Position numbers and translations under genes: made by a program | The notes under the pieces: model-generated | Seen by the model: the letters and a program-made list of their open reading frames with translations, nothing else | The model's database searches: none | What the model was told of the DNA's origin: nothing | Shown: positions 5,897 to 21,547 of the stretch, one piece after another | Layout: each line of letters starts with the position of its first letter | Numbering within the stretch: position 1 is the first letter of the stretch | Assembly (NCBI GenBank): GCA_030657355.1 | Contig: CP131056.1 | Coordinates: 1 to 64,000, forward strand | Direction of reading: 5' to 3' | Length of the DNA stretch: 64,000 bases | Origin: Radicibacter daui | GTDB lineage: Bacteria > Pseudomonadota > Alphaproteobacteria > Radicibacterales > Radicibacteraceae

Positions 5897-5957
5897 GCCT
5901 TAAGACCAAGCGACGAACTGGGCGATTATTCGTGCCATCTAGCGGACACTTCCCCAT

Positions 5958-6323
5958 CTAAACATACTCATCACGCGATAAAATAAGCGTTTCTGCTGGG
6001 CTGGTTATGTCGACAAAATGATGACAGGGACCGGGAGCCCCCTTCATCGTCTCCAATTTTTCGAATATTTCGCCAAGCTTCGCCGCCGAGAAACACCAAG
6101 TTACCTTACCAGGCCTTAACTCCACGTCGGCTTTGTCATTCTTGACGGCAATAACGTGCGAAACTCCAGAGATTTCTACCTGCAAAGCCTCTCGGTCTGT
6201 TGGACGTATAACGTTAGCGATAGCAGACATAAAAGCCGTCAATCCATTTGCGTTCATTGCCAGCAACACAACGGCTGCGCCCTTGAATTCGGAAGCAATT
6301 TCAACGCGAACGATGCTCGTCAT
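5958..6323 (-). CDS. Hypothetical protein in a low-GC pocket
   Basis: A 121-residue protein that I do not recognise. It has no signal peptide, no clear membrane helix and no catalytic motif. The visible pattern is an alternation of short beta-like stretches (VRVEIASEF, ALQVEISGV, VELRPGKVTWCFS) and a helix (KLGEIFEKLETM). The ATG at 6323 has GAAAGG 7 bases upstream, which argues that it is a real gene. The local base composition is clearly lower in GC than its neighbours. It stands alone downstream of the terminator of the sugar-transport operon and converges on the oxidoreductase gene. Recent acquisition is possible but not shown, as no mobility genes flank it. Confidence 0.6.
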   Translation of the reverse strand: MTSIVRVEIASEFKGAAVVLLAMNANGLTAFMSAIANVIRPTDREALQVEISGVSHVIAVKNDKADVELRPGKVTWCFSAAKLGEIFEKLETMKGAPGPCHHFVDITSPAETLILSRDEYV

Positions 6324-6387
6324 ATAGTAGCCTTTCGGCAGCCGGGAAATCTTGCATAAGCCAAATCCTAGGCCTGTGCGCAAAATG

Positions 6388-6425
6388 AAAAAAGGCGGGC
6401 CGTACCCCCCGGTACCGGCCCGCCC
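6388..6425 (-). terminator. Rho-independent terminator of the amino-sugar ABC transporter operon
   Basis: Read on the minus strand, a GC-rich stem made of GGCGGGCC and GGCCCGCC arms, extended by a GTACC/GGTAC pairing, is followed by six T residues. It lies just beyond the stop of the ATPase gene, so it should end the transporter transcript. Confidence 0.8.
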
Positions 6426-6451
6426 GTCTTCACCCTGAACGCCCGGAAGCG

Positions 6452-7558
6452 TTACACGGCAAGAACGTGTTTTTCGGCCTTCGGCAGGCAGAGTCCTGCC
6501 TCGTCGAAGAGGTGGCAATGGGCGCCCTGAGCGGTGACGCCCACAATGTCGCCCACGCGGGCAAGGCATTCACCATCGGTCTTGACCACCAGCGTGGCGC
6601 CATCGGCGAGTTCCACATGCACCAGCGTTTCGCCGCCAAGGCGCTCTACCACCTGCGCCGTACCGGTAATGGAGGCACTCGCCGCATCGGCAATTGCCAG
6701 ATGCTCCGGCCGCACGCCAAAGGAGACCTTCGCACCGGGAGCCGGACTGGCACCGACGGGCACGCTGATGCTGGCGCCGGCGGCGAGGCGAACGGTGGCG
6801 TTATCGGCCGAGGCCGCTTCCACCGTACCAGCAAGGATGTTCATCTTCGGGCTGCCGATGAAGCCGGCGACGAAGAGATTGGCCGGGTGGTGATAAAGCT
6901 CCATCGGCGTGCCCACCTGCTCGATGCGCCCGCCATGCAGCACCACGATGCGGTCGGCGAGCGTCATCGCCTCCACCTGGTCGTGGGTTACATAGATCAT
7001 CGTGCTCTTGAGGCGCTGGTGCAGGCGCAGGATCTCCACGCGCATCTGCACGCGCAGGGCGGCGTCGAGGTTGGAGAGCGGTTCGTCGAAAAGGAAGATC
7101 TTGGGGTCGCGCACAATGGCGCGGCCGATGGCAACACGCTGGCGCTGGCCGCCGGAAAGCTGCTTGGGCCGGCGCTTCAACAGCGGCTCCAGACCGAGGA
7201 TAGCGGCCGCCTTGCTGACGCGCTCCTCGATCACAGCCTTGTCCACGCCGGCGTGTTTCAGCGCGAAGGCCATGTTGCCGTAGACATCCTTGTGCGGATA
7301 AAGCGCGTAGGACTGGAACACCATGGCAATGCCGCGGTCGGCCGGCCCCAGCTCGTTGATGCGCTGGCCGTCGATGCGGACATCACCGCCGGTGATCTCC
7401 TCAAGCCCCGCGATCATGCGCAGAAGCGTGGACTTGCCGCAGCCCGACGGGCCGACGAAGACGACAAACTCGCCATCGGCAATCTCGAGATCGGCGCCGG
7501 GAATCACCACATGCTTGTCGTAGGCCTTGCGGACGGCGCTCAGGGAAAGTTGTGCCAT
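6452..7558 (-). CDS. ugpC: Carbohydrate ABC transporter ATP-binding protein (UgpC/MalK family)
   Basis: This is a 368-residue ATPase with Walker [10 protein letters not shown] at residues 36-44, the signature [14 protein letters not shown], Walker [13 protein letters not shown] and the switch His in '[11 protein letters not shown]'. A C-terminal TOBE/OB-fold part follows from about residue 240 (SFGVRPEHL). That layout is the CUT1 type (MalK/UgpC), in which one ATPase powers two permeases. It is the last gene of the minus-strand operon that starts with the MurQ-like etherase, so amino-sugar uptake is the inferred role. The symbol names the family and is not evidence for glycerol-3-phosphate transport. 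A terminator follows at once. Confidence 0.9.
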
Positions 7559-17597: not shown

Positions 17598-19868
17598 TCA
17601 GGCGGTCGTTTCAGGTTGCAGCACGGCGCGCAGATCGCTGCCCAGCACCTGCAGCCATTCGGCGCTCGGCAAGCCGGTACGGTCAATTTGCCGTTCGATG
17701 GAAAGACCAAGCATACCCTCCAGCTCCCGCGGTAGCCGCGCGGGCCCATAGAGCACGCTGACCGGCGGTGCCGCCGTGCCAGTGCGGAAGCGGGAGAGAA
17801 AGCTGACGGCATCCAGTCGTTCCAGCGCCAGCGAGACAAAGACGAGATCCGGGTCAAGTTCGCTCTGGCCCAGCGCCTGCGCACCGCCGGCAGCTTCCAC
17901 CACGTCGTAGCCCATGGTGCGCAGTTGCCCCGCAAGCACCGCCCGTTCGGCCGTGTGCTCGTCCACGACCAGCACCTGCCCTCCTACCGGCAGATCAGCA
18001 CGCCGGCAGATGGCGGCGAGGCTCTGGGCATCCGGCGGCCAGGAGAGGAAATCGCTGGGGCCGAAATAAAGTGCCCGCGTACTGTCGATGTCAGGCGAAT
18101 GCATGATGACCGGGACGGAGGCAAGCTCGGCCTCGTCACGCATTTCCGCCAGCAGCTCCCAGCCTGACCGGTCCGCCAGCTGCGCCGACAGCACGACCGC
18201 GCGCGGGTGCCCGCTGCGCGCCTTGATCAGTGCGTCGCCGCCGGAGCGGGCCGCCGCGACTGTCCATCCCTCGCGCAGCAGCGCCTCGACGACGACACCG
18301 CGGGCACCATCATCGCTCTCGATGACAAGGATCTGGCAAGCTTCGCTGGAGCGGCCTTTGTCAACGGCCACTGCCGGACGCTGGGGGGAAGAGGGCAAGG
18401 ATGCGGCCGGCGGAAGACCGGCATCTTTCATCTCATGGGCCTCTTCCTCAGGTCGCGCCTCGATGACTGCCGGCATCAGGAGACTGAAGACCGAGCCATA
18501 ACCCGGCCGGCTTTCTACCGTGATGTCGCCGCCCATCATGCGGGCAAAGCGCCGGCTGATCGCGAGACCAAGGCCTGTGCCGCCATATTTGCGGGTATCA
18601 GAGGCATCGACCTGCGAAAAATCCCGGAAGAGCTTGCGCATCTGCTCGGCATTCATGCCGATACCGGTATCGCTGACTTCCACGATCAGCATTTCCCGGT
18701 TTTCGCGCCGCCCCTCGCGTACCTTGAGCATCACCCGGCCGTCATGGGTAAACTTGCAGGCGTTGGAGAGCAGGTTCAGCAGGCACTGTCCGGCGCGGGT
18801 GACATCGCCGATCGCGCGCGGAAGATAAGCGGGCAGATCGACTTCAAGGATGTTGCCATTGGCCTCCGCCAGCGGCCTGACCGTCGCGGCCATATCCCGC
18901 ACCAGCATGGCCACATCAAACGGCGCGGCAGCCACCTCCATACGACCAGCCTCGATCTTGGAGAGGTCGAGAATGTCGTTGATGAGCGTCAGCAGATGCC
19001 GGCCAGCGCGCACCACCCGCTCCATGGGTTCAGAAGTCTCGCGGTTCTGCTGCTCGCGTGCATCCTCCAGCAGCATCTCCGAAATACCGATGATGGCGTT
19101 GAGGGGCGTGCGCAGCTCGTGGCTCATATTGGCGAGAAACTGGGATTTGGCGATGTTCGCAGCTTCCGCCTCGGCACGTTCGCGGGAGGCCCGGGCCGCC
19201 GCCTCGCGCAGCTCGGCCTGCTGCCGCACCTCCTGGGAATAGGTCTTGAAGAGCTGCACCACCCGGGCAAAGCGCCCTACTTCGTCGGTGCGGTCGCTGA
19301 AGGGAACTTCCACCTCCAGCTCGCCGCGGGCAAGGCGAGACATCGCCTCCTGCAACCGCTCCAGCGGCTTCAGCAGCAGCCCCAGAGATGCCGACAGCAC
19401 AAGAATCAGCACACCAACCGTCACCACCATCTCAAGGATGGAGATCATCAGCAGTCGCCTGATCTGCTCCTCGATCCGTCCGCGCGACATATAAAGGTCG
19501 AACCGGCCGAGGCGCTGGCCCTGGTTCATGATCTCGATAGAGGTGTGGATGGTATCGGGGGTTGTGGGATCGCCAATGGAGGTACTGGCGGCGCCGGCAT
19601 AGTCCGTCACCACGGCAGCGCTGAAATTGGGATCGGCCGCAAGGCCGCGCAGCTGTGCCTCGATCTGGCTGGCATTGATGTTCCAGAGCGGCAAGGCCAG
19701 CGCGGTTGCCTGCAGGCCCGCCAGAATTTCCGCCTGCAGCTGCAATGCCTGAATCTGGCGATCACGCTCGCGCAGCATGCCCAGAAGGCTCTGCAGGCCG
19801 ATGATGACAACCAGCACCACCGAAATCACGAGAACCATCCTGGTTCTCAGGCCGAGATTAATCCGCAT
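17598..19868 (-). CDS. Membrane hybrid histidine kinase with two degenerate receiver domains
   Basis: This is a 756-residue protein. A first membrane helix is at residues 11-30, a periplasmic sensor part at about 31-140, a second helix at 141-166 and a HAMP linker at about 165-220, followed by a short coiled coil. HisKA has His250 in '[13 protein letters not shown]'. The ATPase domain has Asn369, 'DTGIGM' at 400-405 and 'GGTGLGL' at 429-435. All kinase motifs are intact. Two receiver-like domains follow (about 512-622 and 632-750), and both lack the phospho-acceptor Asp. The aligned positions are Ser561 (VVLSAQL) and Ser679 (VFVSLAL). The acidic pairs remain, but the usual Lys is not evident. 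Phosphate must therefore go to a separate protein. Confidence 0.87.
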
Positions 19869-20001: not shown

Positions 20002-20502
20002 TCAGGCGCTGCGCGTCAGCTTCTGGTACCGCTTGATAATCCGATCGCGTTTCAGTTTCGACAGGCGCTCGATCCAGAAGACACCCTCCAGCTGGTCGAT
20101 TTCATGCTGAAGGCAGATGGCCAGCAATCCTTCTGCGTCTTCTTCCTTCTCTTCACCATCGAGGGTGCAATAACCCACCCGCACCTGGCGGGGACGCTCC
20201 ACCTCGGCACTGACGCCCGGCATGGAAACGCTGCCTTCCTCATGCCGGACCATATCGTGCGAAGCGGCAAGGATGCGCGGGTTCACATAGATGCGCACTC
20301 TGCCCTCATCCGGCAGCTCGATCACCACCAACCGGCAGGCGACACCGATATGGGGTGCGGTAATGCCGATGCCCGGAGCGGCACGCATGGTCTGCAAGAG
20401 ATCGTCCGCGAGTGTCCCCAGCGCGCTATCAAAGACTTCAGCGGATGCCGCCGGCTGGCGCAGCCGGGGGTCCGGAAACCGCAGAATCTCCCTGATTGTC
20501 AC
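20002..20502 (-). CDS. Peptide deformylase-like protein lacking two metal ligands
   Basis: This 166-residue protein is the full length of a peptide deformylase and keeps its fold pattern (ILRFPDPRLRQPA at the N-terminus). All three active-site motifs are altered. Motif 1, usually GxGLAAxQ, reads GIGITAPH at 44-51. Motif 2, usually EGCLS, reads EGSVS at 89-93, so the metal-binding Cys is Ser91. Motif 3, usually QHExDHL, reads QHEIDQL, keeping His133 and Glu134 but replacing the last His with Gln137. Two of three metal ligands are lost, so ordinary deformylase activity is doubtful. The frame is intact with normal codon use, so it is not decaying. It lies upstream of the hybrid kinase on the same strand. 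Confidence 0.85.
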   Translation of the reverse strand: MTIREILRFPDPRLRQPAASAEVFDSALGTLADDLLQTMRAAPGIGITAPHIGVACRLVVIELPDEGRVRIYVNPRILAASHDMVRHEEGSVSMPGVSAEVERPRQVRVGYCTLDGEEKEEDAEGLLAICLQHEIDQLEGVFWIERLSKLKRDRIIKRYQKLTRSA

Positions 20503-20710
20503 AATTCATCTCCGTGCGACTGGCTGAAGGCTCCAAACCACTCGCATCAATTACTATGAAATATCAAGGACCTGCCAGCTGCCCCGGAAATGCCTCAAAT
20601 TGGCTCGCAACGCATGGGGCCCATAAGCACTTGATCCTCTCATGGGGCGGGGCAAAAGCCCTCGGGAGCCACCTTCCCCGCCAGATTTTAACACCATGGA
20701 GTGTGCGATC

Positions 20711-21547
20711 ATGCCTTCACTGAAGCTGTTCGGCATTGCGCTTGCCACTGGTACTGTTATCGCCGCCAGCGGCATCGCCAACGCCCAGACCACCCAGACC
20801 ACGGTGACGACCGTCACCCCGGGCACGGCCACCGTCTATCCGGCAACCGCCGCCGCCCAGACCACCACCATCACCGCGGCCCCGACGCCGACCAGCGCTG
20901 TGACCTATCCGCCGAGCCCGCGTCCGCTGATGGTGCCGGCAACGCTGATGCAGAGCGGTCCGGCGCCGACTACCACCACCACGACAACTGTGATCACGCC
21001 GGTTGCGGCCACCACCACGGTCGGTACCCCGCCGCCGGAAAGCATGTCGTCCGTCACCCTGCTTGCCAGCAAGGAGGCGCCCGGCGCCGTTGAGGCCCTG
21101 CCGGAGGCCGGCCGCGATGCCTTCCAGACCTATCTGGGTCTCGCCCTGCCGAAGGCTTTTGCCGTTGACAAGGAAAACAAGGCCTATGGCTATATCGGCG
21201 GTGTCGGTGACGTGCAGAGCGCCGAACTTGAAGCAGTGAAGCGCTGCTCCGCCGTTTCCAGCGCCGGTGACTGCAAGGTCATCTCGGTCAATGAACTGCC
21301 GACCGTCGCGATGAATGGCTCCGCAGCTGTAGCCCCCAATGCCATCGATACCGCGACCGAAACCCGCTCCAAGTCGATTGCCGAATACACCCAGGCATCG
21401 GGCCCCAAGGCGCTTGCGACTTCCCCGGGTGGTGCCTGGGGCTGGGTTTCCGGCACCAAATCGGTTGACGAAGCCCGCAATCAGGCTCTGACCCGCTGTT
21501 CGGGTTGGGGTGACAACTGCACCATCGTCGAAGCCAGCGCCCAGTAA
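20711..21547 (+). CDS. Secreted Thr/Pro-rich protein with two DUF4189-like repeats
   Basis: A 278-residue protein. Residues 1-26 form a signal peptide (KLFGIALATGTVIAASGIANAQ). Residues about 27-125 are low-complexity Thr/Ala/Pro/Val sequence of the kind used as a flexible linker. Two repeats follow, at about 141-195 and 226-278. Each has the pattern K-A-x-A, an aromatic-Gly stretch, a helix with Ala, then a Cys pair (RCSAVSSAGDC and RCSGWGDNC). The repeats recall DUF4189 and probably each form one disulphide. The ATG at 20711 is chosen because it starts the signal peptide; the upstream frame has no family features. A terminator lies 58 bases after the stop. Function unknown. Confidence 0.7.
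   Translation: MPSLKLFGIALATGTVIAASGIANAQTTQTTVTTVTPGTATVYPATAAAQTTTITAAPTPTSAVTYPPSPRPLMVPATLMQSGPAPTTTTTTTVITPVAATTTVGTPPPESMSSVTLLASKEAPGAVEALPEAGRDAFQTYLGLALPKAFAVDKENKAYGYIGGVGDVQSAELEAVKRCSAVSSAGDCKVISVNELPTVAMNGSAAVAPNAIDTATETRSKSIAEYTQASGPKALATSPGGAWGWVSGTKSVDEARNQALTRCSGWGDNCTIVEASAQ

Follow-up and report, generated by a model that had tools for sequence, protein, structure and literature searches.

A branch of alphaproteobacterial peptide deformylase paralogues with fixed replacements in all three active-site motifs

Results

A deformylase-like gene with an altered metal centre

On the minus strand of the window (the whole 64,000-nucleotide stretch of Radicibacter daui DNA that was analysed), positions 20002..20502 encode a deformylase-like protein of 166 aa. 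The frame runs from a GTG start (20502-20500), preceded by a ribosome-binding-like GGAG that can be read at 20510..20513 on the same strand, to a TGA stop (20004-20002), with no internal stops. An earlier note on this DNA had these coordinates, the intact frame and length and the three motif changes right, leaving out the strand. By its sequence the product is a full-length peptide deformylase (PDF) homologue: it scores 149.5 bits against Pfam PF01327 (gathering cut-off 22.8), which places it in the peptide deformylase superfamily.

In PDFs, a Cys and two His residues are the metal ligands and a Glu is the catalytic residue. The window protein reads GIGITAPH in motif I, EGSVS in motif II and HEIDQ in motif III; thus, two of the three ligands are gone: the motif II Cys is Ser91 (codon at 20230..20232, minus strand, like all codons given here) and the second His of motif III is Gln137 (20092..20094). 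The motif I Gln is also lost, being His51 (20350..20352). What is kept is the pair His133-Glu134 (20101..20106), that is, one metal-ligand His and the catalytic Glu of motif III, and it is followed by a Phe142-Trp143 pair (20074..20079).

A hybrid histidine kinase gene (17598-19868, minus strand) lies downstream on the same strand after a 133-bp gap, so the earlier note was correct in placing the deformylase-like gene upstream of it; no recurrence of this adjacency was seen in relatives. In 48 neighbour proteins taken from various lineages, three is the most in which any one family occurs, the families matched by at least two of them include no kinase domain, and no operon shared by the branch relatives was found in this (incomplete) neighbour survey, for which a first ORF caller took antisense ORFs in many loci and a second failed to call the PDF of 6 loci and that of the window. 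The kinase is therefore probably a bystander, and a functional link to it was set aside, as none was seen to recur near relatives. Nor could a function be read from the neighbourhood at large: mgtE, a MerR regulator, a DUF1624 gene and a serine ammonia-lyase recur nearby but are confined to rhizobial loci and two f196 family loci, and a NitT/TauT-like ABC transporter (named by sequence reading) near members of three lineages (L091, L197, L200) is probably there by chance. On the other side of the gene, a divergent plus-strand neighbour (20642-21547) encodes a protein of 301 aa whose N-terminal part is rich in Thr and Pro and which has a DUF4189 domain at 35.9 bits.

The three exchanges define a single branch

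The collected loci gave 59 sequences with Ser91 or Gln137, 94 canonical PDFs and 5 others; a frame-shifted (L014) and a truncated (L095) copy were left out of the 59, so that 57 full-length members, spanning at least 17 family codes, were counted. All three exchanges occur together in every one of the 57 and in none of the 94 canonical relatives: position 51 is His in the branch and Gln in the canonical proteins, position 91 Ser and Cys, position 137 Gln and His, each 57/57 versus 94/94. Six members obtained later carry the same His, Ser and Gln. His133 and Glu134 are present in all 57 and all 94, and Asp136, Phe142 and Trp143 are likewise invariant in the branch; at the latter two positions the canonical proteins have Leu (92/94) or Val (2/94), then mostly Phe or Tyr. 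The invariance of these eight residues does not come from shallow sampling because the members are diverse: their tree totals 16.8 substitutions per site, and their identities range from 45 to 98% (median 57%).

Choosing members by Ser91 or Gln137 is circular for these two residues, and three controls were used: a score-based search, a DNA pattern search and trees. Of 385 class genomes, 14 were above the cut-off of the family model NF009484. A search of the same genomes for HExDQ at the DNA level returned these 14 plus three non-PDF matches, and in none of the 385 did it find a PDF with Gln137 lacking the other changes. In a quick tree of 155 rows a single split with support of 100 separates the branch from the rest, and when the motif columns (44-53, 88-97 and 130-144) were removed the 57 still fell on one side of one split, with support of 0.999. 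Conservation of Ser91 and Gln137 as a clade, a check proposed in the earlier note, is therefore found, and decay or sequencing error in a single genome was ruled out as the source of the exchanges by their conservation across the 57 members. In branch members of family f34, the loop after residue 65 carries acidic insertions (L089:5567-6649 in genome G259; L053:1489-2268 in genome G033), which in G259 form a tandem AEAGD-like repeat.

Purifying selection beside canonical copies

Within the branch, dN/dS (NG86) ranges from 0.076 to 0.358 over 76 within-group pairs, all well under 1, which indicates purifying selection and agrees with the earlier description of a kept gene. In three Rhizobium genome pairs the branch copies gave 0.117-0.140 versus 0.029-0.053 for the canonical ones, and in one f34 pair 0.246 versus 0.058; the branch is thus constrained, yet it evolves more quickly, by a factor of about 2 to 5, than the canonical copies with which it shares a genome. 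Together with the trees, these values identify the gene, at the level of sequence comparison, as a member of a branch of type-1B-like PDF paralogues that arose once and has been kept by selection.

Other PDF genes were found alongside in every branch genome checked. The R. daui genome (5.06 Mb, 2 contigs) has two of the canonical def genes that the earlier note had suggested looking for, L001 (EGCLS, QHEIDH) and L002 (EGCLS, QHEVDH). A second PDF with Cys/His/His ligands is present in all 20 branch genomes checked (R. daui and 19 others): in 19 of them it has EGC[LF]S and QHExDH and in the last (G098) ESCLS and QHEIDH, with all three ligands. In an order-level search, all 28 branch genomes gave at least two PDF matches, and in none of the branch genomes examined is the branch protein the sole PDF.

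A patchy distribution, partly on plasmids

The branch has been found so far in alphaproteobacteria. Within the class it is patchy, with members in 14 of the 385 genomes, and it occurs in 6/6 sampled genomes of one genus (g266). Among 299 genomes of the phylum, 24 match at E <= 1e-42; just two of these belong to another class, and both are canonical by sequence. No members turned up when viral contigs were scanned with the branch alignment. Sixteen plasmid records match the window protein, of which the weakest (38-46% identity) may be canonical PDFs; members lie on Sinorhizobium, Aminobacter, Acuticoccus, Tistrella and Mesorhizobium records.

Two copies are damaged: one in Chelatococcus composti is frame-shifted (L014, near 5941-6490), and one on plasmid p_1 of Mesorhizobium huakuii has an N-terminal break (L095, near 6000-6488). 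The damage in both may be sequencing error. A match in Mesorhizobium sp. AR07 spans query residues 41-164 only. Neither the lack of conservation nor the decay in close relatives that the earlier note would have taken as refuting its reading is seen, apart from the two damaged copies.

A modelled type 1B fold and a conserved, putative docking helix

An AlphaFold run with 12 alignment rows (pLDDT 53.8) was set aside in favour of one with 66 rows, 56 of which are canonical phage PDFs (57 distinct ones were found by a canonical query), giving a pLDDT of 96.4. The best solved-structure matches to this model are all PDFs: Pseudomonas aeruginosa 1n5n (Z 27.5, 1.5 A over 166 residues) and the Escherichia coli Fe-PDF 1xen (Z 27.3, 1.3 A over 164 residues), and Foldseek agrees. 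Since most alignment rows are ordinary PDFs, the model says that the sequence fits the fold and not how the active site is arranged. Residues 149-165 (20008..20058, minus strand) are modelled as a C-terminal helix, and parts of a family-wide study define type 1B PDFs by just such an alpha-helical tail (PMC12690207). By sequence and model the protein shares with the type 1B PDFs of P. aeruginosa (1n5n/1ix1, about 45% identity) and E. coli (1xen) the fold (Z 27.3-27.5, rmsd 1.3-1.5 A), the length, His133, Glu134 and the C-terminal helix, whereas it differs from them by Ser for Cys, Gln for the second His, His for the motif I Gln and the Phe-Trp after motif III.

The docking positions were placed with a presumed E. 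coli PDF numbering. According to passages of the same study, E. coli PDF contacts uL22 through L149, K150, R153 and K157, and 23S rRNA through K160 and R163 (PMC12690207). The R163 position was dropped from the count because it is variable in the branch (Arg in 25 and Lys in 7 of 57); of the remaining five, the L149 position was scored as filled by Leu and the other four by Lys or Arg. The full set of five is present in 57/57 branch members versus 11/94 canonical PDFs, the latter count being lowered by a second, longer PDF type in that set whose C-terminus differs. Most canonical proteins have Met at the R153 position (53/94).

A family model that names the branch

NCBIfam NF009484 (PRK12846.1-5, 'peptide deformylase') gives the window protein 252.6 bits for a cut-off of 190, and the canonical L001 protein 174.6. 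In the order of genome G360, 36 of 199 genomes score above the cut-off, 28 of them with branch members (222-286 bits); the remaining 8 have only copies in the canonical range (190-198 bits), and the two of these whose sequences were obtained (L152, L153) are both canonical. Like the branch members found, the window protein scores above the cut-off of this model, an equivalog whose name implies deformylase activity; the model's high scorers lack two metal ligands, and some canonical PDFs pass too. Genome pipelines, through NF009484 and record labels, consequently call the branch 'peptide deformylase' though every full-length member analysed is without two metal ligands, and databases probably name it after a reaction that it has ceased to carry out in the usual manner. 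Rhizobial Swiss-Prot entries noted by curators as 'peptide deformylase-like' may be the same proteins.

Discussion

On a deformylase fold, the branch has replaced the Cys-His-His centre by a fixed set of residues, His51, Ser91, His133-Glu134 and Gln137 with Phe142-Trp143. We tentatively favour, at somewhat less than even chances, a ribosome-docked paralogue whose rebuilt active site would work on nascent N-termini. The branch protein would sit at the ribosomal tunnel exit, like PDF itself, and engage nascent N-termini through a re-plumbed site in which Gln and His have in effect swapped sides (Q51/H137 to H51/Q137). His51 and His133 could then bind a metal, or Ser91 and Glu134 could join them in a metal-free site, and the protein would carry out hydrolysis in a modified form or process N-termini selectively, as opposed to canonical Cys-His-His deformylation. 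This chemistry is a guess from residue conservation. A narrower version is that of a ligand-swapped enzyme (Q51/H137 to H51/Q137, Cys to Ser) with its metal moved or replaced by a Ser-His-Glu arrangement, a ribosome-docked hydrolase for a new N-terminal substrate that evolved once and spread through alphaproteobacteria; so specified, it is rather unlikely.

The main rival, binding without cutting as also suggested in the earlier note, is a pure binder: a metal-free protein that would hold formyl-Met nascent chains, or the ribosomal site of PDF, without cutting, and so regulate or protect, for example by competing with the active PDF. Taken by itself this is a real possibility, with the chances against it. 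It would account for the loss of two of three metal ligands and the retention of the ribosome-contact positions in 57/57 members, and for the presence of another PDF with the usual ligands in 20/20 genomes. However, a pure binder needs no invariant His133 and Glu134, yet both are there in all 57, and it is particular residues that have come in as replacements, not random ones. The His/Gln swap across the site and the constant presence of His133 and Glu134 make a rebuilt site somewhat more likely than an empty one, the pure binder being nearly as likely. Counting against a rebuilt site, His133 and Glu134 could be kept as structural residues; the branch alignment has no new invariant Asp, Glu or Cys as an obvious third metal ligand. 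The damaged copies L014 and L095, the faster evolution, the patchy and partly plasmid-borne spread and the absence of conserved neighbours are also points against the favoured reading.

It is distinctly unlikely that the branch consists of deformylases that remain active with unusual ligands, either Ser/His/Gln or His/His; such enzymes might be weak, or might not respond to actinonin and other hydroxamate inhibitors. The fold and the pocket backbone appear to be retained in the model, and parts of PMC12690207 state that 7.1% of reference genomes lack a PDF bearing the updated motifs and that the motif-changed PDFs of T. brucei are active; the branch protein, nevertheless, is never the only PDF of its genome (a second match in 28/28, a Cys/His/His PDF in 20/20). 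That the gene is a relic drifting under weak constraint is very improbable, being largely refuted by conservation: the two damaged copies, the partial AR07 match and the faster evolution would fit it, but 57 full-length members with identical replacements, a dN/dS well under 1 and the presence in all six sampled g266 genomes do not.

The PDF fold family and PDFs with changed motifs are already known. As described in parts of two studies, type 3 PDFs are substituted in motifs I and II and include archaeal and trypanosomatid proteins, and these proteins and the accessory PDFs of Staphylococcus aureus and Streptococcus pneumoniae, the latter inactive, have weak activity or none (PMC12690207, PMC5591237). 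The branch resembles them in being accessory or divergent with changed motifs, and the window protein has substitutions in conserved motifs, as type 3 is described there, in fact in all three. Those descriptions nevertheless set it apart: its three motifs are changed in one fixed way, and it adjoins the type-1B-like PDFs of alphaproteobacteria. According to a passage of PMC12690207, an exact match to the classical motifs is found in only 61.9% of PDFs, so that such altered copies have already been counted in bulk; the examined parts of that paper hold no description of this branch (the word stem Rhizobi is absent from its main text), and our literature searches found no study of it.

If the protein is indeed a ribosome-docked reader or a re-plumbed hydrolase, rhizobia and other bacteria would have a second player in N-terminal processing that has gone unrecognised. 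The His/Gln exchange is a clean natural case of a rewired metalloenzyme site. It also matters to tell active from altered copies, since accessory PDFs are relevant to resistance against PDF inhibitors. In Sinorhizobium meliloti, COG0242 (peptide deformylase) is listed, in a part of PMC8407117, among functions that putatively promote competition and nodule coinfection; this may or may not be the accessory branch.

A separate kind of altered PDF was met on the way: genome G022 has three tandem PDF genes (L019:507-1013, 998-1621 and 1486-2004), one of which keeps GANQ in motif I and has EASPN for EGCLS, and HQIDH. Tandem PDF clusters are typical of Rhodobacterales, as a passage of PMC12690207 has it.
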